Shown here piece after piece: positions 442 through 54,166 of a stretch of 64,000 nt of DNA. The notes beneath the pieces are model-generated. The model ran no database searches. It was not told the DNA's origin and saw nothing but the letters and a program-made list of their open reading frames with translations. The stretch comes from Astropecten irregularis. Lineage: Eukaryota > Echinodermata > Asteroidea > Paxillosida > Astropectinidae. Numbering within the stretch: position 1 is the first letter of the stretch; each line of letters begins with the position of its first letter. The stretch spans positions 1,240,001 through 1,304,000 of the forward strand of contig OZ020255.1 of the NCBI GenBank assembly GCA_963971285.1, written 5' to 3'. The position numbers were made by a program, and so were the translations under genes.

Positions 442-511
442 TCAGAGTAAATACGAAGAATGCGGTGAATTGGAGAAGACAGACGATTTTGTACAGAGTG
501 CGTGTGTCCAT
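442..511 (-). CDS. First (membrane-anchor) exon of a GT77-like glycosyltransferase, gene cut by left edge
   Basis: Read on the minus strand, an ATG at 511 opens a 23-codon exon starting MDTRTLYKIV. It has a short basic tail then a hydrophobic run (CLLQFTAFFVFTL) and stops one base into a codon at a consensus GTAAGT donor. Length (70 nt), phase 1 and sequence match the first exons of genes C, D and E in this window almost residue for residue. The stem and catalytic exon should lie left of base 1, so only the cytosolic tail and signal anchor are visible. The sequence just upstream (about 535-595) also resembles the sequence upstream of the C and D first exons. Whether the gene is intact cannot be judged. 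Confidence 0.7.
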
Positions 512-625
512 CGTTTCCACACAATTAGTACCCTAGGAGGAAATAAAGAGGATTTTCTTATTTGAGAACTTGCAATCGGCGTACAAACTACGCTGTCGCA
601 TCTCATCATCCATTAAGCCTGCTGC

Positions 626-4858: not shown

Positions 4859-6185
4859 ATGGCGTCGGCACAGCATGTTGATAAAGTCTTGTTCTTCGTT
4901 CTATCATGTGGCTGCATCATCTTTCTCATCAGTAAGTCAACTTGGAAACAAAAGGCTTTATTTGCTTATTAACTGTTGCGTCTTCTTTATTTTGCTGGTT
5001 TGTAATTTATTTCATGAGTCATCGTGGACTGGTCGACCTCGTTCATGTTTGGGCGTGGAGAGTCAGTGTCTGTCTCTATTTACTGCACAACCGTGCAAGT
5101 TTGTAACTCAGAACGAAACAACTCTGGAGCCCGATAGGTAATAACATTCGTATATTTCTTTGTTTCTTTGTCAAGATGTGACGATCGTGTATTTTTGTTT
5201 ATTTATCGCAGATCTTTCGCAGAAACAATATATCAAACTTACTCCAGTCGCCAGTGCTGATCGACATGCCTACGATTTAGACGTCTGCAAATGTAAAACG
5301 CACAGCATGATCTTTGGCTCCTCATCAACGCACAACGCGACATTGGGCTCCCCAACAGCCCGTGGACCACTGACCAACTGCAGCATAGATGACATCAAGA
5401 AGCGTCCCGGTGTGGTCCTGCTGACCACAGCTAATCTGGCCTTTCTGGACGTGGCCATCAACATGCTGCTGAGTATCAAAAAGACAGGAGTCTGCGTCAA
5501 CACTACCTTCATCGCAGAAGACAAGACAGTCTATAAGCAGATGACCACGAGGGCAAAGGATGACCCGACACTGAACGTGCTCTTGACCGATTCTGGAGAG
5601 ATGGACGCCATAGAGCATCCACGTGGTGATCGAAGCCAGTACTACGGCCTGATGAATAAGCGTCAAGCCTACATCCTTAGGCTTCTTAAGCAAGGATATG
5701 AAGTTCTCTTCAGTGACGCTGACACATTTTGGTTCAGAGACCCATTTCCTTTCTTCAAGGGAGACTTCGATATTTCCTTGATAGACACTAGAAATCCTTT
5801 CGGAGTGCGGACGTCTAGATCCAATTTCTGCGCTGGTTTCATTTACTTCAAGCCAACTAATGCCAGCCTGAAGCTTGTAACAAACTGGACGAATACAATG
5901 CAGGCTAACAACAAGAAGATAAGATACCCAATGGATCAAAAAGTGCTCAACGACCTCTTGAAAAACAACAAACCAGTCTATGTCAACATCAAGCCCTTGG
6001 ACACCAACATTTTTCCGTGGGGTCCAAAGTTTTACTCCCTACTCGACAAGAAGGCCAACTACTCGACTGTCATGATGCACGCTGCCAGCATCCGTGGACA
6101 CACGGTCAAAGTCACTAAGTTCAAGAGTTCCAACATGTGGCTGGTCAACAAATCGACCGAGGAATTGTTGGAGGAACTGTTATGA
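4859..6185 (+). CDS. Gene A: type II membrane nucleotide-diphospho-sugar transferase (GT77-like)
   Basis: Two exons, 4859-4931 and 5212-6185, give 347 residues. Exon 1 starts MASAQHVDKV, followed by a hydrophobic anchor (LFFVLSCGCIIFLI), and ends at GTAAGT. Exon 2 begins after TTTATCGCAG; the junction codon is Asn in phase 1. The stem holds a C-x-C (DVCKCK). The catalytic domain starts at RGPLTNCS and carries a D-A-D motif at residues 193-195 in LFSDADTFWFRDPF, the metal and sugar-nucleotide site expected of this fold. Several N-x-S/T sequons support Golgi-lumen orientation. By family (PF03407, as in plant RGXT xylosyltransferases) it should be a retaining glycosyltransferase; the donor and acceptor are unknown. 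Exon 2 alone stays open upstream to 5160, but that start would lose the anchor. Closest paralogues here are B and G. Confidence 0.88.
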
Positions 6186-10103: not shown

Positions 10104-11358
10104 ATGGCGGCAGCGGGGCACATTTACAAAATCGTGTTCGTTCTCCAGTCGCTGGCTTTCCTCGTCTTTCTCATGAGTAAGTCTTTGTTTTGAGATTTAA
10201 TAAGAGAAAAATAATCAAACTTGTAGTCTTTTTAGCATGTTAGCGGTTGGTTTTAAAAACCGTCATTTCGTGATTCGCGGGAAACTGCGAAAGGCCTTTT
10301 TCTCAAAACCCATTGAAGATGTGCACGTAGAATCTGCTGTAGTCCGTTTTGTTTTCATTAAAAAATGCCGCACATTTTCTTTTTTGGCAGGTTTCGTGCA
10401 AAGACGTCGGGATCCTGTACGCCCAGTCTCTACCAGCCTTACCGACCGGCACTCCAGTAGCTTAGACCTCTGCCACTGTACAGAGCACATTATAAGGGAT
10501 CCCAGCGTTACAGAGTGCAAGTTGACTTCAGCCCGTGGACCACTGACCAACTGCAGCATAGATGACATCAAGAAGCGTCCCGGTGTGGTCCTGCTAACCA
10601 CAGCTAATCTGGCCTTTCTGGACGTGGCCATCAACATGCTGCTGAGTATCAAAAAGACAGGAGTCTGCGTCAACACTACCTTCATCGCAGAAGACAAGAC
10701 AGTCTACGAGCAGATGGCCAAGAGGGCCAAGGATGACCCGACACTGAACGTGCTCTTGACCGATTCTGGAGAGATGGACGCCATAGAGCATCCACGTGGT
10801 GATCGAAGCCAGTACTACGGCCTGATGAATAAGCGTCAAGCCTACATCCTTAGGCTTCTTAAGCAAGGATATGAAGTTCTCTTCAGTGACGCTGACACAT
10901 TTTGGTTCAGAGACCCATTTCCTTTCTTCAAGGGAGACTTCGATATTTCCTTGATAGACTCAAGAAATCCTTTTGGAGTGCGGACGTCTAGATCCAATTT
11001 CTGCGCTGGCTTCATCTACTTCAAGCCAACTAATGCCAGTCTGAAGCTCGTAACATCCTGGACGAATATTATGGAAGGTAACAGTAATAAGGGGAAATAC
11101 CCCACGGATCAAGGGGTACTAAACGGCCTCTTGAAAAACAACAAACCAGTTTATGTCAACATCAAACCCCTGGACACCAACATTTTCCCGTATGGACCAA
11201 AGTTTTACGACCTGCTCGCCAAGAAGGCCAACTACTCGACTGTCATGATGCACGCTGCCAGCATCCGCGGACACTCAGCCAAAGTCACCAAGTTCAAGAG
11301 TTCCAACATGTGGCTGGTCAACAAATCGACCGAGGAATTGTTGAAGGAAATATTCTAA
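10104..11358 (+). CDS. Gene B: type II membrane nucleotide-diphospho-sugar transferase (GT77-like)
   Basis: Two exons, 10104-10176 and 10391-11358, give 346 residues. Exon 1 starts MAAAGHIYKI and continues into the anchor VFVLQSLAFLVFLM. The donor is GTAAGT, the acceptor TTTTGGCAG, and the junction codon is Ser in phase 1. The stem has C-x-C (DLCHCTEHIIRD). The catalytic domain begins at RGPLTNCS, with D-A-D at residues 191-193 and the NFCAGF, YSTVMMHAASIRGH and SSNMWLVN blocks shared by the family. Its 5' catalytic half is almost identical in DNA to gene A, while the stem and the 3' middle section (FYDLLAKK, GNSNKGKYP) differ. The intronic frame open from 10237 is not a plausible start because it lacks an anchor. 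Substrate unknown; Golgi location inferred from topology. Confidence 0.88.
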
Positions 11359-11837: not shown

Positions 11838-12192
11838 TTTAAAGGTTGTATCATACTTTGCTTGCATACCTAAACAGAAATCTTCACAGATTTGCCTATA
11901 ACTTACAGGGTATAAAGATAGTGATGGTATAAACATATTTTTGAAAGTGTTCTGCCTTAAATGCTGTATTTATCCAGAAAAGAGTAAAACCAATGACCAA
12001 AATTATTTTTGATCTTTTAAAGATAAAAAAGAGAAAAGACTTAAGAAATATTGTGGCCGTTTTCACTGTTTTCTTAAAAAGTGAGCAACGTATGGCACTG
12101 AAATTTTCACAGATGACTTTTACTGTATCTTCCCTGATATTTTTGCCCATGAATCTGTTTTTCTTGAACAAAAACCAAAGAATGATATTAGT
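11838..12192. repeat. AAAGG-family MITE
   Basis: It starts TTAAAGGTTGTATCATACTT and ends AAAACCAAAGAATGATATTA, with the internal ATTATTTTTGATCTTTTAAA and CACTGTTTTC blocks. A near full-length member of about 355 bp. Confidence 0.7.
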
Positions 12193-19748: not shown

Positions 19749-21669
19749 CTAGGTTTTCGAGGCTCTCATGATGTCTTCATTGGTGATGTTCACCAGCCAC
19801 ATATCGGAACTTTTGAATTTAGCAACTTTCGCTTCGTGTCCGCGGATACTTGCGGCGTGCATGACGACAGTCGAGAAGTTGGCCTTCTGGGCGCGTAGCT
19901 TGTAATACTTGGGTCCCCACGGGAAGAGGTCAGTGTCAAGGTGACCAATGTTCACGTGCTTCGGTATGTCTCGGCCCAGAAGACCGTTCATGATGCCTTG
20001 ATCCGCTTTAATCCTTCCCGTGCGAGATTGGTTATTCATAGCTTCGATCCAAGCCCGAATGAACTTGAGGGTGGTTTCCGTTGGCTTCAGATAAATCAAA
20101 CCGGCGCAGAAATTTGAATCACTGTGTCGTTCGCTATACTTGGAATCAATCAGAGATATGTCAAAGTCTCCTTTGAAGTAGGGGAAGGCATCCTTGAACC
20201 AGAACAAATCAGAGTCACTGAAGAGAACGTCAAGACCCTTTTCTAACAGAGAAAGCATGTACGGTTGGCGCTTCATAAAGAGCTTGAAGTACTGCTGACT
20301 GTATCGTTGTATTGATCGAGACATTTCACCGGAGTCTGTCTGTACCACATGCACCGCTGGATCAGTCGCGGCTCTCATGTGCATGTACCGATACCCTGTC
20401 TGATCCTCAGCAATGATGGTGGTGTTCACACACACTCCAACCCTTTTGATGCTCTCTAAGAGGTTCATGGTCATGTCCACGAAGGCTGTGTTTGTGGTCA
20501 ACAGCATCATGACGCCTGGCCTCTTCTTGACGTCGTTCAGAGTGCAGTTGGACAACGGTCCTCGGACCTGTGATACAGCTGATGTCGACGTCGCAGAGGG
20601 ATGAGATGACACTACCTTGTGCGACGATGACAGGACAGCACGTGGCGGCACGGCAGGATTGGACGACACGGCGTCGTGATGCGATTGGTTGCAGACCAGG
20701 ACCTCCCTCATGGCGCAGTTGCACGAGGAATGAGCCTTCACGGGTTTATGAAAAACCGCACTCCTTGATGCATAACCTAGAGTGAAAAACGATTCAAAAT
20801 CAAACGTTACTTGACCAATTTTCCTGGCTGTGACAAATATTAGTACCTTTCATTATAAAACAACACCGGCCCCTCCTTTACAGATTTACGGACAGCAGAA
20901 ACATGAAAATTGATAACTTGACACAAGAATGCAGAGAAAGGCGTCCATTGACGTGCTTGTCCCCAATAAACTGATGTACAACAATGTTTCAAGTAAGTAG
21001 GCCCTGACGTTTCGATCATTGCAGGATCTTTGTTAAAGGCTAAATAGTTAGCACCCAATCGCGACGCTATACACAAATGCTCTCAACTATTGAGAAATTC
21101 TCTCATGGGTCTGAAGTCTGGACCTCAGTCAAAATCTCTCAATGGTTCACCAGGGACGTGGGTCACTCTCAAGCATTGGTGTCCTTTCACACGATGACAC
21201 TTTTGTAATATTTCGCAACCATGAGAGCATTTCTCGAAGGGTTTTTACCGTCGTGGGAAAAGGCCTTACATTGCAAAGCAACGGGTTACAAATGACATGC
21301 AATGACGCTATACACATGAAGAACGCGCATTTATGGCTGCGTTTGAGCGTATGGCCCTACTCCCGGTAACACGAATGATGCGCGCACAACACTCCCCTGT
21401 GCAGGAGTATACTCCCCATATCCAGAGAGTATACTCTCGCTGACCCGAGTGTCGTACTCCAGCCGTACGAGCGCTCAGGAGTATACTCGTGTATAATGCG
21501 AGTAGCTCGCTCGAACGCACCCAACATGTTCATATAACATACATGTGTAAGTATATACACGTGTTTTCCAATAGATAAGATAACAAAAGTTCAACTTACT
21601 GATGAGAAATCCGAAGAATGCGGTGAATTGGAGAAGAAAGACGATTTTGTACAAAGTGCGTGTGTCCAT
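19749..21669 (-). CDS. Gene C: type II membrane nucleotide-diphospho-sugar transferase (GT77-like)
   Basis: Two minus-strand exons, 21669-21600 and 20776-19749, give 365 residues. Exon 1 starts MDTRTLYKIV, continues into the anchor FLLQFTAFFGFLI and ends at GTAAGT. Exon 2 follows TTCACTCTAG; the junction codon is Ser in phase 1. The stem is longer than in A or B, with YASRSAVFHKPVKAHSSCNC (C-x-C) and a Ser/Thr/Pro-rich stretch. The catalytic domain starts at VRGPLSNCT, with D-S-D at residues 211-213 in LFSDSDLFWFKDAF. The 823-bp intron holds about 355 bp absent from gene D. It forms a tandem duplication with D and E and belongs with them to a subfamily distinct from A/B/G. It should be a Golgi glycosyltransferase; substrate unknown. 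Confidence 0.88.
20816..21170. repeat. Insertion in gene C intron absent from gene D
   Basis: The intron of D reads straight from TTGATCAATTTTC into AGCATTGGTGTCC. In C about 355 bp separate these points. The extra DNA has GACGTTTCGATCATTGCAGG and no coding signal. It could be an insertion in C or a deletion in D. Confidence 0.6.
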
Positions 21670-21780
21670 CTTTACCACAAAATTAGTGTCCTAGAAAGAA
21701 AGAAAAAGAAGATTTTCTCATGAATTAGCAATTTGAGTACAAACTACGGTATACTACAGTACGGAGTTTCGGAAATATTC

Positions 21781-21896
21781 TAACGGTATGTTTCTACAAA
21801 CACCATCTTCATATCCTGACAGTTATACTGTATACGTAAATCTTTCAACATTTTTGTTTGGGTACGTTACCAATTATGTACTGTACTTTTAGCTTA
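21781..21896. repeat. AAAGG-family MITE fragment upstream of gene C
   Basis: The right-hand blocks of the family (AACGGTATGTTTCTAC, CACCATCTTCATATCC, GTACTGTACTTTTAG) lie about 110 bp upstream of the gene C start. The same fragment is duplicated upstream of gene D at 24895-25005. Confidence 0.6.
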
Positions 21897-22053
21897 TAGC
21901 AGTATAACTCTGGACGTTATATTGTGAGTAATTATTGAGTATATAAATGGGATTAATGTCACACAAACTCGTCATGTTTCTATTCTGTAGTCCTTTATTT
22001 TACTTTATATTTCAGTTAAACCAACATAACAACCGCCACCAACATTATCTTCT

Positions 22054-22306
22054 GGGCCATTTTCCAAACCTCAGCTCGGACTCAGACTCCGGCTCCATTT
22101 CGTGAATCCATTCTAGAATAACGGGTGTCAAAATAGAGCCTTTTGGCTGCGGTTTAGAAGTACATGTAGATACTCTATTTTGAACAAGAAAACAGAGCCT
22201 CCGCTTCCATGAAAAGCTACAACATTATCTTCAGCATATGGATGACAGAGCCGAAGCCGGAGCCGAGCCGGAACCGGAGACGGAGCCGAGCTTTGGAAAA
22301 AGGTCC
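22054..22306. repeat. CCGGCT-hexamer foldback element
   Basis: The ends GGGCCATTTTCCAAACCTC and GAGCTTTGGAAAAAGGTCC each border short GGCTCC/GGAGCC runs. Duplicated with the whole unit at 25165-25418. Confidence 0.7.
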
Positions 22307-22779
22307 TGCAAAAAAAACCTCCATCACCAATTTCGTAGTCAAAAGTATCAATCTATGTTGGATTCTGATACATCATTACAGAGTTATTGGAACGTTTAAA
22401 ATACGTGTCATTGCTGAGGTTACTACATACCAACTTGAGTATACATGGAGGCTACAATGACATTTGGGGACGGACCGGGATAAACAAAGTGGCAATTGAC
22501 GAAATACAGTAAAATCTTTCATGGCAAGTTTGAAATTTATACATGTCAGTTTGTTTTCTAAACGATTCAATGTACCAAAACATGATTATGTAAAATACAA
22601 TTGCTCTCGTGCTCTGGCTTTACCGATGACCTCTGCAAATCAAGCTGACCATTGCTTAATACATGTACATGTATGTGGTATTTGAAACGAACACAATATA
22701 CTACTATGAATGGCATTAAAACACGTTGAGGTTTCCTATGGAGCCAGTGGGGTGACATGCTCCACTCAGCAAACTATGC

Positions 22780-23155
22780 CACCTATAATATAACATAACA
22801 TAATATGAATTGGCAAAGCACGACATAATAATATAACATAATGTAACACAACGTTAAGTGATGTGACGTGATGTGACATCACGTGACGTAACTTGATGTA
22901 ATAAATATGACGTAACGATAAGATGACATGACATAAAATGACAAGACTAAACAACACAACACACAAAAGACAAGGCATTTGTAACATAACATAACATAAC
23001 ATGACATGACATGACATGACATGACATGACATAACATGACATAACATAACATAATATAACATGACACGATACGCATGGCATACATAAAATGACATGACAT
23101 GACATTTCATGACATGACATGACATTACATGACATGACATGACATGACATGTCAG
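22780..23155. repeat. (AACAT)/(GACAT)n pentanucleotide satellite
   Basis: Long runs of GACAT and AACAT pentamers with interruptions, purest at 22980-23155. They end about 45 bp from the gene D stop codon, at the boundary between the C and D duplication units. Confidence 0.85.
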
Positions 23156-23199
23156 TTAAGAATCTTCGCTCTTGGAGCCTCAGATGATGTCAGTCGTCC

Positions 23200-24785
23200 C
23201 TAGGTTTTCGAGGCTCTCATGATGTCTTCATTGGTGATGTTCACCAGCCACATATCGGAACTTTTGAATTTAGCAACTTTCGCTTCGTGTCCGCGGATAC
23301 CTGCGGCGTGCATGACGACAGTCGAGAAGTTGGCCTTCTGGGCACGTAGCTTGTAATACTTGGGCCCCCACGGGAAGAGGTCAGTGTCAAGGTGACCGAT
23401 GTTCACGCGCTCGGGTATGTCTCGACCCAGAAGACCGTTCATGATGCCTTGATCCCCTTTAATCCTTCCCGTGCGAGATTGGTTCTTCATAGCTTCGATC
23501 CAAGCCCGAATGAACTTGAGGGTGGTTTCCGTTGGCTTCAGATAAATCAAACCAGCGCAGAAATTGGAATCACTGTGTCGTTCGCGATACTTGGAATCAA
23601 TCAGAGATATGTCAAAGTCTCCTTTGAAGTAGGGGAAGGCATCCTTGAACCAGAACAAATCAGAGTCACTGAAGAGAACGTCAAGACCTTTTTCTAACAG
23701 AGAAAGCATGTACGGTTGGCGCTTCATAAAGAGCTTGAAGTACTGCTGACTGTATTGCGGTATTGATTGAGACATTTCACCGGAGTCTGTCTGTACCACA
23801 TGCACCGCTGGATCAGTCGCGGCTCTCATGTGCATGTACCGATACCCTGTCTGATCCTCAGCAATGATGGTGGTGTTCACACACACTCCTACCCTTTTGA
23901 TGCTCTCCAAGAGGTTCATGGTCATGTCCACGAAGGCTGTGTTTGTGGTCAACAGCATCATGACGCCGGGCCTCTTCTTGACGTCGTCCAGAGTGCAGTT
24001 GGACAACGGTCCTCGGACCTGTGATACATCTGATGACGCCGTCGCAGAGGGATGAGATGACACCACCTTGTGTGACGATGACAGGACACCACGTGGCGGT
24101 ACTGCAGGATTGGACGGCATGGCGTCGTGTCGCGATTGGTTACAGACCAGTTGCTCCCTCATGACGCAGTTGCACGAGGAATGAGCCTTCACGGGTTTAT
24201 GAAAAACCGCACTCCTTGATGCATAACCTAGAGTGAAAAACGTTTCAAAATCAAACATAACTTGATCAATTTTCAGCATTGGTGTCCTTTCACACGATGA
24301 CACTATTGTAATATTTCGCAACCATGAGAGCATTTCTCGAAGGGTTTTTAGCGTCGTTGGAAAAGGCCATATATTGCAAAGCAACGGGTTACAAATGACA
24401 TGCAATGACGCTATACACATGAAGAACGTGCAATTATGGCTGCGTTTGAGCGGTTAGGCCCTACTCCCGGTAACACGAATGATGCGCGCGCAATACTCTC
24501 CGGTGCAGGAGTATACTCACCATATCCAGAGAGTATACTCTCGCTGACCCGAGTGTCGTACTCCAGCCGTACGAGCGCTCAGGAGTATACTCGTGTATAA
24601 TGCGAGTAGCTCGCTCGAACGCACCCAACATGTTCATATAACATACATGTATAAGTATATACATGTACATGTACACGTGTTTTCCAATAGATAAGATAAC
24701 AAAAGTTCAACTTACTGATGAGAAATCCGAAGAATGCGGTGAATTGGAGAAGAAAGACGATTTTGTACAAAGTGCGTGTGTCCAT
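23200..24785 (-). CDS. Gene D: type II membrane nucleotide-diphospho-sugar transferase (GT77-like)
   Basis: Two minus-strand exons, 24785-24716 and 24227-23200, give 365 residues, exactly the length of gene C. Exon 1 encodes the same anchor as C (MDTRTLYKIV and on). The donor is GTAAGT, the acceptor TTCACTCTAG, in phase 1. The stem has HSSCNC and a Ser/Pro-rich section. The catalytic domain has VRGPLSNCT, CVNTTIIAED, D-S-D at residues 211-213, NFCAGL and YSTV-like FSTVVMHA blocks. The second exon frame stays open through much of the intron, which would give a false 406-residue protein without an anchor. Differences from C are few and scattered, so the duplication is recent and both copies look functional. 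It is probably a Golgi glycosyltransferase of unknown substrate. Confidence 0.88.
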
Positions 24786-24894
24786 CTTTACCACAAAATT
24801 AGTGTCCTAGAAAGAAAGAAAAAGAAGATTTTCTCATGAATTAGCAATTTGAGTACAAACTACGGTATACTACAGTACGGAGTTTCGGAAATAT

Positions 24895-25005
24895 TCTAAC
24901 GGTATGTTTCTAACAGCACCATCTTCATATCCTGACAGTTATATACATAAATCTTTGAACATTTTTGTTTGGGTACATTACCAATTATGTACTGTACCTT
25001 TAGCT
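24895..25005. repeat. AAAGG-family MITE fragment upstream of gene D
   Basis: Duplicate of the fragment at 21781-21896, carried along in the segmental duplication. Confidence 0.6.
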
Positions 25006-25164
25006 TATAGCAGTATAACTCTAGACCTTATATTGTGAGTAATTATTGAGTATATAAATGGGATAAATGTCACACAAACTCGTCATGTTTCTATTCTGTA
25101 GTCCTTTATTTTACTTTATATTTCAGTTAAACCAACATAACAACCGCCACCAACATTATCTTCT

Positions 25165-25418
25165 GGGCCATTTTCCAAACCTCAGCTCGGACTCAGACTC
25201 CGGCTCCATTTCGTGAATCCATTCTAGAATAACAGGTGTCAAAATAGAGCCTTTTGGCTGCGGTTTAGAAGTACATATAGATACTCTATTTTGAACAAGA
25301 AAACAGAGCCTCCGCTTCAATGAAAAGCTATAACATTATCTTCAGCATATGGATGGCAGAGCCGAAGCCGGAGCCGAGCCGGAACCGGAGACGGAGCCGA
25401 GATTTGGAAAAAGGTCCT
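25165..25418. repeat. CCGGCT-hexamer foldback element
   Basis: Near-identical to 22054-22306, part of the duplicated unit. Confidence 0.7.
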
Positions 25419-25909: not shown

Positions 25910-26215
25910 TAATATAACATAACATAATATGAATTGGCAAAGCACGACATCATAATATAACATAATGTAACACAACGTAAAGTGATGTGACGTGATGTGA
26001 CATCACATGACGTAACTTGATGTAATCATTATGATAAAACGATAAGATGACATGACATAAAATGACAAGACTAAAACAACACAACACACAAAAGACAAGG
26101 CATTTGTAACATAACATGACATGACATGACATGACATGACATAATATAACATGACACGACACGCATGGCATACATAAAATGACATGACATTTCATGATAT
26201 GACATGACATGACAT
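25910..26215. repeat. (AACAT)/(GACAT)n pentanucleotide satellite
   Basis: Same satellite type and flanks as 22780-23155. It ends about 50 bp from the gene E stop codon. Confidence 0.85.
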
Positions 26216-26264
26216 GTCAGTTAAGAATATTCGCTCTTGGAGCCTCAGACGATGTCAGTCGTCC

Positions 26265-33832: not shown

Positions 33833-34165
33833 TTAAAGGTACTATCATGCTCACATAATTACCTATAACTTACAATGTATAAAGACGGTGATGGTAGAAA
33901 CATACCGTTAAAACAGCCTGAAATGCTGTATTTATCTGGAAAAGAGTAAAACCAATGACTAATATTATTTTTGATCTTTTACAGATCGAAAATAAAAGAG
34001 GAAATACTTAAAACATACTGTGGCCGTTTTCACTGTTTTCTCAAAACGTGGGCACCGTATGGGACTGGAATTCTCACGGATGACTGTTACTGTATCTTCC
34101 TTGATATTTTTTTGACATGAATCTACATTTTCTTTGACAAAACCAAAGTATGATATTACCAATAA
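33833..34165. repeat. AAAGG-family MITE
   Basis: It starts ATTAAAGGTACTATCATGC and ends AACCAAAGTATGATATTACC, with all central blocks present. About 330 bp. Confidence 0.7.
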
Positions 34166-34169
34166 ATTT

Positions 34170-35325: not shown

Positions 35326-35800
35326 AGCATAAACATTCGGTAAGCATGACATTTCTGTCTTAATTAAAACAGAATTAACAACCAAATTCCCATGAGTTAT
35401 GTATCATTTGCAATAATGTTCTTTGGCTATTGTTCGCTCATCATGAATATTCAATGGTGGTTTGTTTTATTGGGCCAGCTATTTTTGCAAGCTATTTTTG
35501 TGCTAAGCAATTTGTTGTGCTAAGCAGCTCTATGAAATTGGCCCCAGGTGTATGGAATAATGAAATGATAACAAATATAATGAGCATTAATTAAATGACC
35601 GTCATGGACACGTGTGTCTTGCTATTATATCCGTGGAGGTGCCGGCGATTGGCGATTTATGTTTACATAAAATATGTCCGTGGCAGCGGTGTTGTCTGGT
35701 TTATGTATGGCAATGTAGAGGTACAACCCGTTAAAATGGCATGTGGTGTTCAAAATCCCGGGGTTGGTGCCGGCCCACGGCGATGGGAAGAAACACGTGC
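35326..35800. repeat. Interspersed repeat pair shared with 17690-18132
   Basis: 35326-35549 ends GCTCTATGAAATTGGCCCC. 35690-35800 has GAGGTACAACCCGTTAAAA and CCGGCCCACGGCGATGGG. The second piece runs directly into the Penelope-like coding region, so it may mark the element's upstream sequence or an older host repeat. Confidence 0.5.
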
Positions 35801-35819
35801 ATAGCACTGCCACCGTTCG

Positions 35820-37300
35820 GTTTGAAATTGAACTTCCCGTGAACACAATTCTTGCCACCATGGATGTTGCCTCACTCTACACCAACATACCTCATGCCGA
35901 TGGACTGAATGCCATTCGTAACACCATCTTGAAGACTAACACCAGTACTACGACCTGCCAACTTGCCAAGTTTGTGCTTACACACAATGACTTCAAATTT
36001 GAGGACATGCTCTATCTTCAAACTAGAGGTACTGCTATGGGGACACGCATGGTTCTTCAGTATGATAACCTCTTCATGGCCGATCTTGAACAGCGCTTCC
36101 TCCAAACTCAACCCTTGAAACCTCTACACTACCCCCGGTACATTGATGACATATTCCACCCTACTATGAAGCTCACACTGGAACATTCGCAGCAACACGT
36201 CAGCGTTTTAGATACAACCGTTAGCATCAACGATGGCAAGCTCGCAACTTCACTCTACAAGAAACCGACTGATCGTGCAAGTTATCTTCACGCATCCAGC
36301 TTTCATCCTCCCCACACCACCCGATCTATAGTGTACAGTCAAGCATTAAGGTACAACCGCATCTACTCAGACACCATGGACCGTGACGCACACCTCACCA
36401 ATCTCCAGCAGTCATTCCTCGACTTGAAGTACAGCCACCGCACTGTGGATGAACAAATCACCAAAGCGAAACAAAAATCTCGAGATGAGCTCTTGCACTA
36501 CAAGACACGAGACCATGGAGACAGAACACCCCTTGTGGTCACCTACAGCCCCCAACTCAAATCACTCCAGAAATCATAGATGAACTGAACCCTATCCTCC
36601 AGGAAGATGACGCCCTAAGACAAATCTACAAGGAACAACCCATAATCACCTACAAGCAACCCCCTAATCTTCGTGCCCATCTCGTCAAGAGCAGCCTCAC
36701 ACCTCCTGTCAACAATGGTACATCCCCTTGCAGAACCCCAAGATGCCAACTCTGTCACCACATAAACACTACCACCTCCATAACTGGCCCTAACAATGCT
36801 ACCTTCACCATCAAGGGATCACACACCTGCAAGTCCTCTGCAATTAGTTTCCTGCAATGCTCCAGAGCAACGTACATTGGTCAAACTGGTCAGTTACTAA
36901 AGCAACGGATCAATGGCCACAAGTTTGACATTCGACACATGGATGTGGAGAAGCCAGTGTCCCAAACGCAGTGTCCCTGGCCATTCTATCGCTGACCTGA
37001 GAGTGGCCATGGAGGTATAAAAAGACCTTCAAAACCAGAATGGACAGAGAAGCAAAGGAACAAAAGATAATCCACAGACTGGACTGCGTTGACCCTGGAC
37101 TCAATAGGGACCGTGCTTTCAGGTCCCACTCCTTCTCCCATGCAATTATGACTCATCGTGCCCCCTTTCGTTCGGGCATGCTTCATTGCTTTATACCAGT
37201 TTATATACTCGTGTTGATGATGCTCCACTTCATTACATCTGATGAAGTAGCTGTTTCTATGAAAGCTTATGTAGTTTTTCTCATAGTTAGTCTTTAACTT
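35820..37300 (+). mobile_element. Penelope-like element: reverse transcriptase plus GIY-YIG endonuclease, degraded
   Basis: The first frame (to 36579) gives RT motifs: TILATMDVASLYTNIPHADG, then YLQTRGTAMGTRM, then HYPRYIDDIF with the catalytic Y-x-D-D-like YIDD, then VSVLDTTVSINDGKLATSLY. About 30-40 residues normally between IDDIF and HPT are missing. A frame change near 36555 opens 36561-36995, with Cys-rich CRTPRCQLCHH and the GIY-YIG nuclease core YIGQTGQLLKQRINGHKFDI. A further shift gives REAKEQKIIHRLDCVDPGLN near 37050-37110, the usual C-terminal end. The order RT then GIY-YIG on one strand identifies the Penelope class. Two frameshifts and the internal deletion mean it is dead. Confidence 0.85.
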
Positions 37301-38076: not shown

Positions 38077-41000
38077 ATGGCATCGGCAGACATTTACAAG
38101 ACCTTGTTCTCATTGCAGACTGTGATGTTCCTCATCTTTATATTCAGTAAGTGCATCTTCTGTTTCTCATGTAACTTATTGAAAAGTGAACAAAGAAAAA
38201 TTGACAGGAGCGGGATTCGAACCAGCGACCTCCGGAATAACGTACCGGTGCTCTTACGAACCCTTGTTAGGCCTATCTAGATATTTCGTACACATTATGT
38301 GTGCATTGACCACTTATTCTGAAATACTGCAAACTCTTTTTAAAGAGCACTCTTTCAGTTGGTCATATTTTTTTGTTAGGCCTATCTAGATTGCGTAAGC
38401 ACAATATACAGGGTGTCCCCCCAAAACGCAAAACTTTGTGTCGAGAACCATTACATATATATTAAAATTAAATTGTTTATCACTTCACGATTCAGATATG
38501 TGATACAGCCATGTCTTGGCTATCACCATGTAGAATTTGAGCAAAATTGAACTGAAATTAAGGACACTACCTAAGACTGAATCATCTTTCTTTCATGCAC
38601 ATTATGTGTGCATTGACCACTTATTTTGAAATACTGCAAACTCTTTTTAAAGAGCACTCTTTCAATTGGTCATATTTTCGCAAATTTCAACCCGATGTTG
38701 CTTACATTGGTGATAGTCAAGACATGGCTGTATCACATATCTAAATCTTGAAGTGCTTAACAGTTAATGTTCATATAACAGTTCTCGACACAAAGTGTCG
38801 CGTTTTTGGGGTACACCCTGTACATGTATACAGTTTTCAACGCTTGTTTAACGGCTGAAATGAACGGAAAGGCTACCCGTCATTAACATGACGGACACAC
38901 AATTCCGACTACCATCTCTATCTGACACGTACTAATAATGTTCTTCACTACAACCTGGCACCGCCAGATCGATGTCCAACAATATAGGCTTAAAATAATT
39001 TCCCCGAAATTAATTGAGGCGTTCATTTCAGCCTATAGAAATTTGAAAAACAACTGGCATCAAATAATTTAAACACTAATATAACGTACATGTATCTTTT
39101 CCACTCAAATCGCATGCTCTATTTCTTCCTTATTTTAAAAGCCTTGTATGCAAGGTCAAGTTATTCATGTGTGAGAGAGGAAATTTTTACATGAATTTTT
39201 TATATGATTTTAATTCCTTTTCCATTATTGTCTACCCTGTACTCATGTTACCCCTGGATGAGTGATTTTGCGTTGTGTGTCCATTACATGGTCCCTCGTT
39301 TTTTGTGTACTCAATTTGTCAGTTGAGTACACATACAGTACGTTGTCTTAAGTTTCTTGTAAATGCAGAGTGTACACTGACCGTTTTTGGTAACGATCTC
39401 GGTAACATGTTGCCCATGTACTTTTTAACTGAATGTTGTCAGTGTACACAGAGCAAAACGAGTTGGGTAACATGTCGCAGCAACATCTCGGTAACATGTT
39501 GGCCAAAATGTTGCTAGTGTGCACAGTGCCCAAAGTCGTGTTGCCCAGGTGTGTTGCCCTAACTGGACAACATGCTACCGCAAAGTGTTGACATGTAAAA
39601 TCAAAAATCAAATTGCCACGCATAAAAAGACGCGTGTACACTATGATTGGCCTCCCTACCTTCTCACATGGTTGACAGCACACTTAGTCAAAATTTTGAA
39701 TGGGTAAACTGTAAACACACAGAGCTGTCGTGTACAGCGCATTATAGTCAGTGCCTCCATAATCAGTGTAATATGTACACAAAACACGTCTCTCTACAAC
39801 AAAATGGACGCCGTAATTATCGAATCCTAGTCACAACCACATGTGTATAGAGATCAGTGGATACAATACGATAGGTGTGTGTTAGTTGTCCCTCCGTTTT
39901 CTTCAGTAAACAGCTTTATCATATAAAATCAGATATATTGGATGGCATACAATTTACAAAATAAAACAACATCCCCTGTGGCCAATATCCTTCCAGCCGC
40001 CATGCTTATAAACACCATGGAGAAATATGCTTTCTACTATGGTAGGCCTACAACTAACTACACATAGGGTAGGGGGAAATTGTATTTGTATAACTTCGTA
40101 AAGGGTTGGGGGTCAAAGCAAGAAGCAGATGAAAGTTAGCTTACCTATACCTCTCAGGGCACAGCAAGAATCCACTCTACCACACTGGGTCACAGCACCT
40201 TTACGACGCACATGTACATTGTACACGGTGCCAACTGAGATACGGTTCAGTGCACCTCGGTGGTTCGGTCCGTGACCAGCACGCTATCTGCCTTGAATCA
40301 TAACACTGGTCCAGGCCTACGTCAGTTTTGTCACCGCTCGTCATCTATTATGTTCATACCATCAATTTGTTATCGTTATTTCTATCCTCTTTCCATTAGT
40401 CACGAGCTTTTTACCAATGGTTGGGCAAGGGTTAATCAACTGACGTTATTCTATGCTGGTACTGAGTGTGTTTGCTCCATGCATTAACAGATCATATGGT
40501 GGTCTGTCCCTATCTCCCACGGTATTTGTCATAATCACGCACGCATCTTCATTACGTAAATTAGATGGAAGCTCGAATGGCCGTTCCGGTCCACTGCACA
40601 ATCGTTTCTCTATGAGGGTCAAAGGGCATCACACCACATGTATATCGTGGGCCAAAATTAATACATTTGTATAACCATAGAGTAAGGTTTTATGGCTGGA
40701 CCTACCCAGGGGTGCAGTAAAGTAATTTTCCATAGGCTCCCATCATAGCTAAATGGCCATTTTCAATTTTTTTTCCTCAGGCAATCAAGCTATATACCAA
40801 AATGAAGCTGAAAACTTACATTTTAATTTTCCTTTCAAGTTTCTATAAGGTGACCAACTTTTGAGAGTGTTGAGAAAAATCCATCCAAAGGAAAATACCC
40901 TGAAAACGGCAATGTTGACTGGTGCCAGACTAAAACAAACGTACCCCTAAAAAAAAATGCCAAAGTAGAGCGAGTTTAGGGCCTGATTTCATCCGAACAG

Positions 41001-43099
41001 CTCAAAGTGGAAAGTACAAACTTTGGTGACCGAGTTCCATTCATTTTCTCTACAAGAATTCCTTTGTAGGGTGCAGAAAATTATTATATATAAAAAAATG
41101 AGGTTTACAAAATTAATGAGCTCCGCGGACAAATTTTCACCTATTTACTAGGGTGCACCCCTAGTTATCATAATTTGAAACCCTGAACCATTATGTCAAT
41201 TAAAAGCTTTTGTTGGAATCGTGCAAGCAATTTAAGGTAATTTAATGCTGTGGTTTTCGTCAATGCAATGCAGATTGATCGGCAAACATATCAAGAACGA
41301 TACAATAACAGTCATCTGTGAAAGGTCCAGTCCCATATGGCGGCAACTTTTTTAGAAAACAGTGAAAAATGCTTGCGGTATTTTTTTTATTTTTTTCACA
41401 GGAGTATTGATCTCTGTGAGATCAAAATACATGTAGTTTGAGGGTAATTGACTTTAACAGAACAATTAACACCCACACTGTACTCGTGTGTAGATGAAAT
41501 AATAAACCTGTGAAAATTTGAGCTCAATCGGACACCTGAGTATATTTTTAACGTGTATCAACTGGCGTAGGGTAATCAACCTTTTGCACATTAAAACTGA
41601 ATAGTATCTGACACACAAGACTACTTCATATTTGTCCCAGTTTGCGGAATTTCCCAGCAAAAGCTTGCATCTCATCATGTGATATAGCAACAGTGTCTTT
41701 AGTCTGGGAAATTCAATCTAGCTTGTTTATATGGAAATGAAAGAAGTCTGTGTACCAGATCCGTGTTCAAATGTAATGTGCAAATGGATTATTGGTGGAT
41801 ATACCTTGCCCATGCTTTGATATACCATGCCCACTTGACATACCGTTAGACACATGTCAAAGCTTTGATATACATGTACATACCATGTCAATGCTTTGAT
41901 ATACCATGCCCATGCTTTGATATAGAATGCCCATACTCTGATATACCACGCCCATGCTTTGATATACTATGCCAATTCTTTGATGGCCATGCCCATGCTT
42001 TGATATACCATGCCCATGCTTTGTTATAGGCTCATACCATGTAATTCGTGCTCTGCCATTTACAGCCCATGCTGCAATATTATTCTCTTATGCTCTTCTT
42101 GATATTATTGCACGACTCAATACTTGTTTCTTTTCTACACGTTCTGTCGTAGATTATTATAGAACCACCGATGTTATTCATGTACCCAAACCTTCCAGGA
42201 CCGATGCTTGTGAATGTCAACGAAGTGGCGCGGTGGGAGATGTAGACCTAGGGGACACCCGTGGTCCGCTCTCAAACTGTTCCCTGAGCGACATCAGGAA
42301 GCGGCCTGGTGTGATTCTACTCACCACGACAAATACGGGCTTCCTAGACATGACAATCAACCTGTTGATGAGTATCAGACGAACAGGTGTCTGCGTCAAC
42401 ACTACCATCATCGCCGAGGACGACAGCACGTACAGGTATCTGCAGAAGAAGGCCGAGAGAGACCCGGTTGTGTTCGTAGTTAAGACGGCATCTGGAGATC
42501 TAGACGATAAAGAAATACTACGCAAAAATCCCAAGGAATACTACAACATGATGAACAAACGCCAGGCGTATATTCTGCCGTATCTTGAGAAGGGTATCGA
42601 TGTTCTGTTCACCGACAGTGACACGTTCTGGTTCAGAGATCCCTTCCCATTCTTCACGGGGCAGTTCGATATCTCTTTGATCGACTCCAGAAATGCTTTC
42701 GGTGTTCGTAACACGCGGTCTAATTTCTGCGCAGGGTTTGTGTACTTCAAGCCCACGAATGCAACCATCTCGTTCATCAAGGGCTGGATTGGGGACATGG
42801 CCAGGCACGGTTGGAGAAGATCTGACCAAACCGTTATGAACGGGCTTCTCCACGGTGACAAGCCCGTGCACGTTGACATCAAACCCCTGGACACGAACCT
42901 GTTCCCCTGGGGTCCAAAGTTTTACTCCCTGCTCGCCAAGAAGGCCAACTACTCGACAGTCATGATGCACGCTGCCAGCATCCGCGGACACGAAGCCAAA
43001 GTGGCCAAGTTTATGAGTTCCGATATGTGGCTGGTGAACGCAACGAGCAAAGAACTCGTGGGCAATTCAAGTAGTCTGGTAACTCCAAGTAGCCACTGA
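38077..43099 (+). CDS. Gene H: type II membrane nucleotide-diphospho-sugar transferase (GT77-like)
   Basis: Two exons, 38077-38146 and 42153-43099, give 338 residues. Exon 1 starts MASADIYKTL, with anchor FSLQTVMFLIFIF and donor GTAAGT. The 4006-bp intron ends in a pyrimidine-rich tract and GTCGTAG, and the junction codon is Asn in phase 1. The stem is short, with a C-x-C (DACECQ). The catalytic domain begins at TRGPLSNCS, with CVNTTIIAEDD and D-S-D at residues 178-180 in LFTDSDTFWFRDPF. NFCAGF and MMHAASIRGHEAKVAKF follow. It is intermediate between the A/B/G and C/D types, with an extended Ser-rich C terminus (SSSLVTPSSH). The exon pairing across 4 kb of repeats rests on phase, size and similarity of exon 1. 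Confidence 0.82.
38179..38270 (-). repeat. tRNA-derived SINE fragment in gene H intron
   Basis: On the minus strand it ends in GGTTCGAATCCCGCTCCTGTC, a tRNA T-arm and acceptor end. The tail sequence AAAAGTGAACAAAG is shared with 63305-63402. The 5' half is truncated at about 38262. Not a functional tRNA. Confidence 0.65.
38409..38820. mobile_element. Mariner/Tc1-type MITE, copy 3
   Basis: The ends CAGGGTGTCCCCCCAAAACG and CGTTTTTGGGGTACACCCTG are flanked by TA at 38407-38408 and 38821-38822. 412 bp, no transposase. Confidence 0.8.
39100..41230. other. Gene H intron, middle part, nothing firm recognised
   Basis: No exon of the family or other gene is seen. 39390-39600 has several diverged copies of AACATGTTGCC/GGTAACATGT words suggesting an eroded repeat. 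The rest is plain AT-rich sequence. Confidence 0.4.
41232..41400. repeat. AAAGG-family MITE fragment
   Basis: AAGGTAATTTAATGCTGTGG, ATATCAAGAACGATACAA and AGAAAACAGTGAAAAATGC mark a diverged left half. Confidence 0.5.
41813..42028. repeat. Tandem repeat GCTTTGATATACCATGCCCAT
   Basis: About ten imperfect copies of a 21-bp unit, ending about 125 bp before the gene H exon 2 acceptor. The unit GCTTTGATATACCATGCCCA is the common form. Confidence 0.8.
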
Positions 43100-47559: not shown

Positions 47560-48470
47560 AGGTGGATGTATACAGGCAAATAACTGGAACGGTATTGGAA
47601 AATAATGGGATATGTATGGGAGCAATACTGCTGGGGGGGGGGGGGGCAGGAAAAGTACTGGATGTGGTGCTGGAAAATGATGGGAAATGTATGGGAGGAA
47701 TACTGCAAGAGGGTACAGGAAAAGTACTGGAAGTGGTGCAGGACAAGTACTGGAGGTAGTATGGGAAAATTGACGGGAAATGTATGGGAGGAATACTGCG
47801 GGAGGGTACAGGAAAAGTACTGGAAGTGGTGCAGGAAAAGTACTGGAAGTGGTGCAGGAAAAGTACTGGAAGTGGTGCAGGGAAATGATGGGAAAGGTAT
47901 GGGAGGAACACTGCGGGAAGGTGCAGGAAAAGTACTGGAAGTGGTATGGGAAAATTGACGGGAAATGTATGGGAGGAATACTCCGGGAGGGTACAGGAAA
48001 AGTACTGGAAGTGGTGCAGGAAAAGTACTGGAAGTGGTATGGGAAAATTGATTGGAAAGGTATAGAAGGAACACTGTAGAGGGTACAGAAAAAGTACTGG
48101 AAGTGGTGCAGGAAAAGTACTGGAAGTGGTGCAGGAAAAGTACTGGAAGTGGTATGGGAAAATTGACGGGAAATGTATGGGAGGAATACTGCGGGAGGGT
48201 ACAGGAAAAGTACAGGAAGTGGTGCAGGAAAAGTACTGGAAGTGGTATGGGAAAGGTATGGGAGAAACACAGCGGGAGGGTACAGGAAAAGTACTGAAAG
48301 AGATGCAGGAAAAATAATGGAAGTGGTGCAGGAAAAGTACTGGAAGTGGTGCAGGAACAAATTATGGGAAAGGTAGGGGAGGAACACTGCAGGAGGGTGC
48401 AGTAAAAGTAATGGAAGTGGCCTAACAGGAAAATGATGGGAAAAGTACTGCATGCAGATTACGAGGAAAG
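47560..48470. repeat. 21-bp-based compound minisatellite
   Basis: The core GTGCAGGAAAAGTACTGGAAG is repeated. It alternates with a longer module (TATGGGAAAATTGACGGGAA then ATGTATGGGAGGAATACTGC), giving higher-order units. A G run sits at 47633-47646. The period is a multiple of three, so several frames on both strands stay open for up to 322 codons; none resembles a known protein. Confidence 0.85.
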
Positions 48471-49398: not shown

Positions 49399-52300
49399 CT
49401 AAGGTTCGGCAATCAATTCCTCGGTCGATTTGCCAATCAGCCACATGTTCGAACTCTTGAACTTGGTGACTTTGGCCGTGTGTCCGCGGATGCTGGCAGC
49501 GTGCATCATGACAGTCGGATAGTTGGCCTTCTTGGCGAGAAGGTCGTAAAACTTTGGTCCATACGGGAAAAGGTTGGTGTCCAAGGGCTTGATGGTCACA
49601 TAGACCGGCTTGTTGTTTTTCAAGAGGCCGTTTAGCACGTTCTGATCGGGGGTATAACTACCCTTCTTCTTGTTGTCATCAAGGGCTTTAACCCAAGCCC
49701 TCATGAGCTGGAGGGTCACACTGGTTGGTTTGAAGTAGATAAAACCAGCGCAGAAATTGGATCTGGAGGATCGAACGCCAAGAGGATTCACCGAGTCTAT
49801 CAGTGAAATATCGAAGTCTCCCTCGAAGAACGGGAATGGGTCCCTGAACCAAAATGTGTCAGCGTCACTGAAGAGAACCTCGTATCCTTGCTCTAGCAAC
49901 CTCAGAACGTAGGCTTGACGCTTATTCATCAGTCCGTAGTACTGGCTTCGGTGTCCACGTGGATGCTCTATGGCGTCCATCTCTCCAGAATCGGTCAAGA
50001 GCACGTTTAGTGTCGGGTCATCCTTGGCCCTCTTGGCCATCTGCTCGTAGACTGTCTTGTCTTCTGCGATGAAGGTAGTGTTGACGCAGACTCCTGTCTT
50101 TTTGATACTCAGCAGCATGTTGATGGCCACGTCCAGAAAGGCCAGATTAGCTGTGGTCAGCAGGACCACACCGGGATGCTTCTTGATGTCATCTATGCTG
50201 CAGTTGGTCAGTGGTCCACGTGTTGAGGTATTTACGCAGTGAGAAACTGTGTCCCTCAGTATATGTTCTTCGCAATGACAGTGGTCCGACCGCTCAACTG
50301 GTGCAGGCGAAAAGACTACATCGGAGTTCTGAGAAAAAGCTACAAATAGAGCCAAAAACAACCCAGTTTTTATTCAAAAGTATAAATTTCGAAATACTAA
50401 TTAATCCATTGGGTTTGCATCTGATTAATGGCCATTAAGCCTCCTCCTAATTATTCCAAAAGCATCCTGGAGGTTTCTGGGGGATTTTGGTGGAATGAGG
50501 TTACGTAGAAGCTGTGATAGAAACGACCGCAAGTCTGCCCAGACGATAAGCCCGAAGTATAGCCTGTACTATAGATGTCTAATTCATTCTTGACTTGGTT
50601 CGTGAGTGTACGTGGACAGCTTCAGCCACGAAATACAAATGTTCAAACGCCATGGCAAGCAGATTAGTGAACAAGCCTAGCTATGGGAACCTTTTCTTTT
50701 GAACAAAAAGCTCCCAATTCTGACGTCACGAAATCACACAGATTTGTCTGCTGCCCCCATTGACGAAGTTAAGAGAATCTGAATTTTAGGGAACTTGCGG
50801 GCTGAGCATGTTGAGAGAAAAATCATCCAAAAGGACTCTTTCTGTGTTAAGTGTGAGATAAATATTTGTTTTTCTCATGTCAAGTTATTTAAGGATTATA
50901 GTTCTAACAAATAAAGCGAGGTTTTTTTAGCGTTGAACATCCCCTTTAAAAGCATTTTCTGAGCTTCGCGCGGGAGGTCTAGGGGCCTGTTTGTTTAATG
51001 CACAGGATCAATGATTTTGCGGATCCGGATCCCATTTTAGCGTATACCCTGCATAGGAGGTGGATCCCTAAATATGGGATCCTTTGCATTAAACAAACAG
51101 GCCCCTAGTAAAAACAAAATGACATCAGGTCCCCAAAGTTTGTACTTTCAAAACTGTGAGCTGTTTGGATGGAATCGGGCCCTAAATTGCTCTGATTTTC
51201 CATAAGAGGGATGATTTTTCAGTGATAGGCCAGTTAAATAGGGAGCTACACGTACGGGGGGAAGTTGTCTTTGCATGTACACGTACTTTTCAACTTAAAG
51301 GTAGTATCATACTTTGGTAAGAAACCAAAACAGAAATGTTCACAGATTTACGTGTAACTTCCAGGGTATGAAGATGGTGGTGGTAGAAACATACCGTTAA
51401 AATGTTTGGACCGCCTGAAATGGTGTATTTATCAAGAAATTAGTAAAACAGCGAGCGAAAATCTTTTTGATCTTTTAAAAGATCAGAAATAAAAGAGAAA
51501 AGACTTGAAATACCGTGGCCGTTTTCACTGTTTTCTCAAAAAGTGGACACCGTATGGAACTGAAATTTTCACAGATGACTGTTACTGTATCTGTCTTGAT
51601 ATTCTTGCCATTGAATTAGTATTTCTTTCATAAAAACCAAAGAATGATACTACCTGTAAAGGGGCCGTCCATAAAGTACGTACGCACGAAATGCCGACTT
51701 TCTGCCCCCCTCCCCCTCTGTATACGCATGGCGTACGCAATGGTCCCAACCCCCCCTCCCCCCTGTACGCATATGCATTCCACATTAGGCTTTTCACTTC
51801 TCGTGGTCCCTTCCTTTAGCATCATTAAAATGTCACAGTAATCCGGGCCAGTACCGTTATTGGGACGTCACTTTCAAATTCTGAAATGAATGACTAAAGT
51901 TTAACAGGTTTTTATACATTTACAGATGGATTTTACTATTTTTTATCATGCTGAATAAGAAAAAAAAGGAAAGATCAGAACAATCCCGGTGCTTTTTTTC
52001 ACGTTTTTTACCTCTCTTTTCGCGAGATAATACTATGCAAATTTTTCGTTTGCGTACGGTACGCATTGGCCTGAACCCCACCCCCCCCCCCCTCCCCCCT
52101 GTACGCATGCCGTACGCATCGGTAACAATTGTTGACAGTGTACACTCTGCTTCAAAGTCAATGATAAACCTATATGGACAATTGAAACGAAAATGAAAAT
52201 GTAAGATTCCAGCTTTATTTGTTCTGTATGGCTTTGATTTTTCTAATAATTATTTGTTTTTAAATTTGCCATTTCGCGTGGCTACGTACGGGAAATTCTG

Positions 52301-54166
52301 TACATGCCTGCATCCTACGACTGTTTGATTGACTTGTAAAGCTGGAGGGAGTATCTAAAGCTTTTAAGTCAACATATGATGGCCTAACCTCTGGTAAACA
52401 TCACGTGGATGTCATTGGTGCTTGGCAAGGGATGAAAAAAAAATCACCGGGCGCTGTCGGATCTAATTATCCGGTTACAAATATTCACTAACAGTTAAAA
52501 TAAACTAAAAGGGAAAAAGCAGAGACCAACGTTTGGCCCATGCTCAACAACCCAACAAGTGTAAACTGTAGAATTTCAGTCAGTTATTTTGTCCATTTTG
52601 CCAAGTAGAAACACGCTTTTCACCTTTTCACCTGATCTAAAAGAAACAGTGGGTGCATTCGTTTAACTCCCCCGGTTCGATACCAGTCAACCTCGTCCCC
52701 ATTCTCTCGCTTGTTGTGTGCAGTACAGTATATAGCCCGACCATTCCCAGTAATTAAGGGCTGACCCGTGTCAGCTAAACGAATGCACCCATTGTACGTA
52801 GTCTCTGTACTTGATCTAAATGCTCAGTAATAGCAAAAATAGACTTCAGTCTGCTGCCGCCAACGTCTCAAAAGCCTCCCATTGCAATTTCTTCATCAGA
52901 AACCACACCTCTGTTTGCACTGAACATTTTAATCATTTTTGCCGTACTATTCTGCAAATTCACGCTCCTTTACTGAATGTATACCACATCAGAGTCATTT
53001 CACCATTTCATAAAGCCTAACGATCGATCGTAACTCGAGTTACGAAGGATAACCCGTCCTACGTGGGGTTGCAAGCCTGCAACACATCATAATGTTTACG
53101 ATTAATCGTATTTTACGATTAGTTTAGTGAATCGACCTCAGTATCTAGGCCTTTATTCCACCACTGTATTCCACCACTGATCTGATTTACATTTATCCCT
53201 TAATGGTAGTATCATACTATGCTAAGAAACCAAAACAGAAATATTCACAGATTTATCTATAACTTTCAGGGTATGAAGACGGTGGTGGTAGAAACATACC
53301 GTTAAAACGTTTCCCACTGAAATGGTGTATTTATCCAAACAAAGTAAAACAACGACCGACAATCTTTTTGATCTTTTAAAAGATCAAAAATAAAAGAGAA
53401 AAGACTGAAGAAATACTGTGGCCGTTTTCGCTGTTTTCTCAAAACATGGGCACCGTATGGGACTGAAATTCTCACAGATGACTGTGATTGTATCTTCCTT
53501 GATATTTTTGCCCATGAATCTGTATTTCTTTGAGAAAAACCAAAGTATGATATTACCTTTAAACCAAGTTACCTATTTCATTCAATACCGGGATGAGTGC
53601 ACCAACGACAAGGGATATGACCCATGAAAAGGGAAAACAGGGGTGCGGGACTGAGGGTATTTATTTAAGCAAAATCCACCCTGCAATAATTCGTGTCTAG
53701 ACCTATAGAACACGGAGCACTTGGTGAAGCAGAAAAATGTTGAAGTTCATTCAGACTACCCAACAAAAACTTCATAATGATGAATGGCTTTTCAATGTTC
53801 TTTAATCCCTCCCAGTCCCTTGGCAAATAAAATTGTTTGCTCAGTGTGTCCTCAATAATAGACATAATGTGCGACCAAAGTTTACGTAGCCGAACAGCGT
53901 TGGGAATTGTGCAAAGAAGTATGTGGACGATATAATGGTCTTCTTTGCTGTTTCCACAGCTGTTCTGCACCAAATAATCATGACAAAATACCCATGTCAC
54001 GCAATCGCTCTATTTGTGCTTTGGGCTGGATTAACTATTTGATTGTGAGATATTTTCTGCATGACGACTGTTGAAATATAAACTACATGTACTTACTTAT
54101 TAGCAGGACGATAAAGGCAATAGACTGCATAAAGAACAGGATTTTGTAAATGTGTTCCCCCGCCAT
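49399..54166 (-). CDS. Gene G: type II membrane nucleotide-diphospho-sugar transferase (GT77-like)
   Basis: Two minus-strand exons, 54166-54097 and 50339-49399, give 336 residues. Exon 1 starts MAGEHIYKIL, with anchor FFMQSIAFIVLLI and donor GTAAGT. The 3757-bp intron ends CTCTATTTGTAG, which keeps phase 1 (junction codon Thr). A second AG 12 bases further on does not keep the frame. The stem has C-x-C (DHCHCEEHILRD), very like gene B. The catalytic domain has RGPLTNCS, CVNTTFIAED, D-A-D at residues 182-184 in LFSDADTFWFRDPF, NFCAGF and MMHAASIRGH. The anchor HIYKI matches gene B exon 1, supporting the long-range pairing. The second-exon frame continuing to 50361 is read-through into the intron. 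Substrate unknown; Golgi inferred. Confidence 0.82.
50980..51107. repeat. Foldback with TAGGGGCCTGTTTGTTTAATG ends, in gene G intron
   Basis: AGGGGCCTGTTTGTTTAATG and its complement CATTAAACAAACAGGCCCCT enclose 128 bp, with inner GGATCC/GGATCC and GGGATC repeats. Confidence 0.8.
51296..51660. repeat. AAAGG-family MITE, full-length example
   Basis: It begins AAAGGTAGTATCATACTTTG and ends CAAAGAATGATACTACCTGT, about 365 bp. It contains the central TTTTTGATCTTTTAAAAGATC palindrome in split form, making it a good family reference. Confidence 0.8.
51658..52140. repeat. GTACGC-rich repeat with C-runs, in gene G intron
   Basis: GGGGCCGTCCATAAAGTACG at 51661 and two related blocks with GTACGCAT.. 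and CCCCCCTCCCCCC (near 51745-51770 and 52060-52105) flank about 270 bp. The blocks share the word CCTCCCCCCTGTACGCAT. It looks like a diverged element with related ends. Confidence 0.55.
52650..52791. repeat. Foldback with TGGGTGCATTCGTTTA ends
   Basis: TGGGTGCATTCGTTTA at 52650-52665 and its perfect complement at 52776-52791 bound a 142-bp element in the gene G intron. Confidence 0.8.
53005..53140. repeat. Foldback relative of 4332-4472
   Basis: It carries ATCGATCGTAACTCGAGTTACGA-type words and ends TAGTGAATCGACC. The left arm is eroded. Confidence 0.45.
53198..53563. repeat. AAAGG-family MITE
   Basis: It starts TAATGGTAGTATCATACTAT and ends CAAAGTATGATATTACCTTT, with all family blocks. 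Very close to 51296-51660. Confidence 0.8.
53665..54000 (-). mobile_element. Possible LINE ORF2 C-terminal fragment
   Basis: A 111-codon minus-strand frame contains CGNSKEDHYIVHILLC followed by RLRKLW. This is loosely like the C-x-E-x2-H-x3-C zinc-binding-like segment found after the RT domain of some LINEs. No RT part is next to it. It lies inside the gene G intron, 97 bp from exon 1. It could equally be a chance frame. Confidence 0.3.

Follow-up and report, generated by a model that had tools for sequence, protein, structure and literature searches.

How does a single stretch of the Astropecten irregularis genome come to hold eight loci of one glycosyltransferase-like family, and what might their products do? 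The window (by which we mean the whole stretch of 64,000 nucleotides that was analysed, C19:1240001-1304000, in a genome of 475.7 Mb and 168 contigs) almost certainly carries part of a tandem array whose two-exon genes belong to the PF03407 nucleotide-sugar transferase family. Genes of this type were known before; the copies here are numerous, recently duplicated and exchanging sequence.

The array and its gene plan

Seven PF03407 catalytic exons lie within the window, six of them open and one (that of g5) frameshifted, together with eight anchor exons (about 25 codons each) that encode a short tail and a hydrophobic segment. The window genes follow one plan, a short anchor exon and a catalytic exon; all eight anchor exons of the window end in a GTAAG donor, with the last codon split after its first base. 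The eighth gene (g0) has its anchor exon inside the window and its catalytic exon just outside (C19:1238395-1239375). The initial annotation had described a cluster of eight loci of one family between positions 442 and 54166, comprising six intact genes, one broken copy and one gene truncated by the edge. Its coordinates and its count are both correct, and the three classes correspond to the six open catalytic exons, the frameshifted g5 and the anchor exon of g0. The features, in positions of the window, are the following.

440-511, minus strand: anchor exon of g0; the gene runs off the left window edge
4859-4933, plus strand: anchor exon of g1
5212-6185, plus strand: stem and catalytic exon of g1 (acceptor 5212 or 5176; open frame 5280-6185)
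from 5286 and from 5361, plus strand: C-x-C and RGPL motifs of g1, respectively
10104-10178, plus strand: anchor exon of g2
10391-11358, plus strand: stem and catalytic exon of g2 (acceptor 10391 or 10244; open frame 10465-11358; mosaic)
19749-20776, minus strand: stem and catalytic exon of g3 (open frame 20732-19749)
21598-21669, minus strand: anchor exon of g3
23200-24227, minus strand: stem and catalytic exon of g4 (open frame 24183-23200)
24714-24785, minus strand: anchor exon of g4
26265-27259, minus strand: broken copy g5 (catalytic exon 27205-26265)
27404-27475, minus strand: anchor exon of g5
38077-38148, plus strand: anchor exon of g6
42203-43099, plus strand: part of the stem and catalytic exon of g6 (acceptor further upstream)
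49399-50339, minus strand: stem and catalytic exon of g7 (acceptor 50339 or 50297; open frame 50286-49399)
54095-54166, minus strand: anchor exon of g7 (intron of about 3.8 kb)
21172-24271 and 24275-27286, minus strand: two tandem copies of a unit of about 3.1 kb, 90.7% identical

The first copy of the 3.1 kb unit holds the anchor exon of g3 and the catalytic exon of g4, and the second the anchor exon of g4 and the catalytic exon of g5. The broken copy has a frameshift near 26.76 kb and a shorter stem.

The family extends well beyond the window. A profile search of the genome's contigs gave at least 46 PF03407 matches (a lower bound), and 14 of these fall within a C19 region of 278 kb, including the seven inside the window. 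Such clustering is not due to chance, with 14 of 46 matches confined to 278 kb out of 475.7 Mb, and within this genome the array is indeed expanded. The C19 genes from outside the window interleave with the window genes in the tree, which shows that the window captures a section of one bigger C19 array, about twice what the window displays. An anchor exon adjoins 13 of the 14 catalytic exons of C19; the fourteenth had none within the approximately 3.9 kb examined upstream. A lone anchor exon lies at C19:1214713-1214642 on the minus strand with no catalytic exon near, about 24.6 kb upstream of the fourteenth, and is a candidate first exon for the gene at C19:1189185, from which a long intron would then separate it. 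The search for anchor exons covered the window and 42 loci, and only loci on C19 matched; many of the loci elsewhere are short stretches, so we draw no inference on their anchor exons.

Other sequence in the window and genome

The initial annotation had seen no other clear host gene except a possible THAP exon. Its negative part stands for the ten other long frames that were scanned (of 33 listed), none of which passed a Pfam cut-off; for the THAP exon, two motif scans gave nothing convincing. The best of these ten frames, at 35719-36995, resembles a reverse transcriptase (RVT_1, E 1.3e-5, below the cut-off) and is probably a retroelement remnant. The window also contains tandem repeats, detected by self-alignment at short offsets (27972-28486, 47573-48447, 57552-57956 and 61191-62066), and a repeat of about 350 bases that looks like a mobile element, with an inverted pair and dispersed copies that are 73-87% identical.

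1674-2376: repeat of about 350 bases
near 11838-12190, 33847-34166, 51295-51660, 53200-53563 and 56769-57019: copies of this repeat

Elsewhere in the assembly, the mitochondrial contig is 16,335 bases long. Its large rRNA and the frames that we interpret as ND1 and ND2 are on the strand opposite COX1, presumably the usual sea-star gene arrangement. In its COX1 stretch, four of four AAA codons stand at what we take to be conserved Asn positions and ATA codons at presumed conserved Ile positions, in agreement with the echinoderm code. On the strength of these Asn contexts we rejected amphioxus as the source of the DNA; a search for the GFP family, which amphioxus carries, was negative too, by itself a weak sign from a search with no positive control. 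A COX1-like stretch with seven TGA codons at C25:9951047-9952018 is probably mitochondrial DNA that was copied into the nucleus, and a COX1 frame of 552 aa on C131, free of stops in the standard code, possibly comes from a bacterial associate.

Duplication of the copies

The relationships of the copies come from a midpoint-rooted tree that includes 43 of the 46 genome matches and leaves out C14:17121062, C9:19273102 and C9:19253400; in it C1:22124226, which has an in-frame stop, is represented by its open part and g5 by its C-terminal piece. In this tree of one genome, a branch with support 100/99 separates the 14 C19 copies and one C14 copy from the rest, and support is lower (81/70 and 87/84) at the forks that connect the C19 subfamilies. 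Three subfamilies occur in the window, with catalytic parts approximately 55-63% identical between them, and the closest copies reach 97.7% identity in the catalytic protein. The array grew by tandem duplication. A separate PF03407 subfamily on C1, with copies on C11, C23 and C27, has a stem made of seven-residue repeats resembling S-D-Q-R-P-V-S, in variable number.

Selection and gene conversion

Among the 78 pairs formed by the 13 intact C19 genes, 33 were outside the usable range (saturated or failed); in the 45 usable pairs dN/dS was always below 1, with a median of 0.22 and a range of 0.11-0.47. The intact copies are under purifying selection where the rates can be computed. Silent divergence is unevenly spread over the domain: in 24 close pairs the mean dS of five successive stretches was 0.05, 0.18, 0.65, 0.42 and 0.28. 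In a seven-gene subgroup, three members of which are inside the window, silent differences fall in clusters (sum of squared fragments, permutation p = 0.0002; longest run, p = 0.0004), and this subgroup carries the mark of gene conversion. The same test was not significant in a three-gene subgroup of the minus strand (p = 0.057 and 0.21).

The gene g2 is a mosaic. From about position 10529 onward, its catalytic part matches the copies at C19:1218565, C19:1224038 and C19:1467016 with 95-96% identity, whereas its anchor, intron and stem have 64-77% identity to the same three copies, in a gapped alignment. This fits conversion of the catalytic part, although a segmental duplication fused to a different 5' end could produce the same picture.

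The most variable part of the seven-gene subgroup is a patch at codons 150-180, between the NFCAG and D-Q blocks, where 21 of 30 codons vary in protein, against 42 of 226 elsewhere. The initial annotation had suggested a diversifying pathway. In the sense of selection this is not supported, and we set aside positive selection on the patch, because dS is raised there as well as dN: over codons 150-170, dS could not be computed in six of the 21 pairs and was 0 in three, and in the other 12 the ratio stayed under 1 except for a single pair at 1.03. Given that the silent rate is raised too, the patch may simply have escaped homogenisation between copies.

Family membership and predicted activity

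All six open frames match PF03407 (Nucleotid_trans; curated cut-off 22 bits) with 99.9-110 bits (E 2.6e-28 to 2.1e-31), as the initial annotation had anticipated. The C-terminal piece of g5 matches as well (80.6 bits, E 2.1e-22), and its N-terminal piece gave no PF03407 match in the Pfam scan. Across the eight frames scanned no other Pfam domain was above its cut-off, and two of the eight gave a GT8 signal below it. Of the blocks that every copy had been said to share, C-x-C, NFCAG and the two Asp of D-[AS]-D do not vary among the six open proteins; the claim fails for g5, in which NFCAGF reads NFNAGF and the Cys is replaced. For the D-x-D, D-Q and His motifs we assume their usual functions. 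Spliced models were built for six of the eight window genes, with two acceptors each, and have hydropathy maxima of 1.7-2.6 (19-residue span) near the N terminus. A search for relatives in prokaryote and viral contigs confirmed none of 51 and none of 78 pattern matches, respectively.

Solved structures gave no match by sequence (best E = 1). The predicted structure is weak (mean pLDDT 46.1, pTM 0.52); with this weak model Foldseek returned 18 matches at E <= 0.001, of which 17 are glycogenins, all at TM 0.31-0.35 to the model. Glycogenins, of GT8, are the best fold matches, and two of the eight frames gave the GT8 signal below its cut-off mentioned above, but they belong to another family and are 14-17% identical in the glycogenin rows at E <= 0.001.

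The CAZy family named for the window genes is GT77, a retaining family. Among its members by description, the plant enzymes RGXT1-RGXT4/MGP4 presumably also carry PF03407, but they act on pectin. They are alpha-1,3-xylosyltransferases, and the source describes RGXT3 and RGXT4 as shown to use fucoside or fucose and cites, by its title, a work that places RGXT1 and RGXT2 in the Golgi (PMC12168206). AgtA of Dictyostelium, the Skp1 alpha-3-galactosyltransferase, is described as a GT77 enzyme too and forms an alpha-3-Gal bond; it differs in acting in a nucleocytoplasmic pathway and in having a WD40 domain (PMC8724618), whereas in the window proteins an anchor exon accompanies PF03407, the single Pfam domain above its cut-off. 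Titles and abstract openings among the matches listed contain no animal GT77 array, and the literature searched contains no mention of amphioxus together with GT77.

These elements suggest a mechanism. Each gene would encode a Golgi type II membrane protein with its catalytic domain in the lumen, and this domain would be a metal-dependent retaining GT-A transferase, attaching a sugar in alpha linkage (most likely a 1,3-linked galactose or xylose, with fucose as a possible acceptor). The targets would be secreted or cell-surface glycans, and different copies may serve different acceptors or tissues. That the proteins are lumenal retaining transferases is likely; that fucose is the acceptor is possible, short of probable. 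Taken as a whole, the reading that we favour from sequence, and consider probable, is that of Golgi-type retaining transferases of alpha-galactose or alpha-xylose, perhaps onto fucose.

Possible roles of the array

What would so many such enzymes be for? One tenable, if tentative, answer is that the array varies the decorations of mucus, coelomocytes or N-glycans for immunity or digestion and is unrelated to gametes; enzymes of surface glycans commonly form tandem families. Sulfated and sialylated N-glycans are noted in echinoderms by one source (PMC8724618), which agrees with such a role, but the sequence gives no pointer to any tissue.

The history of the array invites a second answer, in which a birth-and-death process expanded it in tandem and the copies differ little in function, being kept by dosage or drift. 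The near identity of the closest copies, the presence of a broken one and the conversion between copies are all consistent with it. Yet the three subfamilies of the window have diverged far from each other and dN/dS is below 1 in every usable pair, and we consider this explanation rather unlikely.

A more specific role would be in the acrosome reaction-inducing substance (ARIS) of starfish egg jelly, described as a sulfated Xyl-Gal-Fuc3 repeat recognised by sperm: some members of the family could make its Gal-alpha-1,3-Fuc bonds. The repeat is given as [->4)-b-D-Xyl-(1->3)-a-D-Gal-(1->3)-a-L-Fuc4S-(1->3)-a-L-Fuc4S-(1->4)-a-L-Fuc-(1->], and the inner chain also has Gal-(1->3)-Fuc (PMC3528131). 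Among the five bonds of the repeat, that of alpha-D-Gal alone keeps the anomer of the usual donor, and beta-Xyl and alpha-L-Fuc would presumably need inverting enzymes. GT77 enzymes are described as using fucose (PMC12168206) or forming alpha-3-Gal (PMC8724618), a bond like that of ARIS. Against this, the structure was solved in Asterias amurensis, and similar components in other starfish are, in the words of one source, 'apparently not investigated' (PMC10146216); moreover, a single bond needs no dozens of genes. The main text of a paper on expression in gravid starfish has no word beginning with 'xylosyl' or 'glycosyl', and that of a paper on the starfish egg transcriptome has neither a word beginning with 'xylosyl' nor 'glycosyltransferase'. 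The link between the array and ARIS is an inference, which we judge unlikely. It is very unlikely that the array supplies the Gal-alpha-1,3-Fuc transferases of ARIS and that, in addition, conversion, which leaves the N-terminal half of the domain uniform and a patch near the presumed acceptor site different, underlies species differences in gamete recognition.

Glycosylation of saponins is scarcely credible as a role: sea stars make steroid glycosides (according to abstracts) and asterosaponin sugars include xylose, fucose and quinovose, but attaching sugars to saponins is usually the work of GT1 enzymes that face the cytosol, whereas the window proteins are predicted to be lumenal and of type II.

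The array has two kinds of interest. The enzymes that build ARIS are named nowhere in the parts of the literature that were searched, and a large family of a biochemically plausible type would provide a candidate set for them. The array is also an example of tandemly repeated enzyme genes whose copies have had part of the catalytic domain homogenised, with one patch and the stem remaining distinct.
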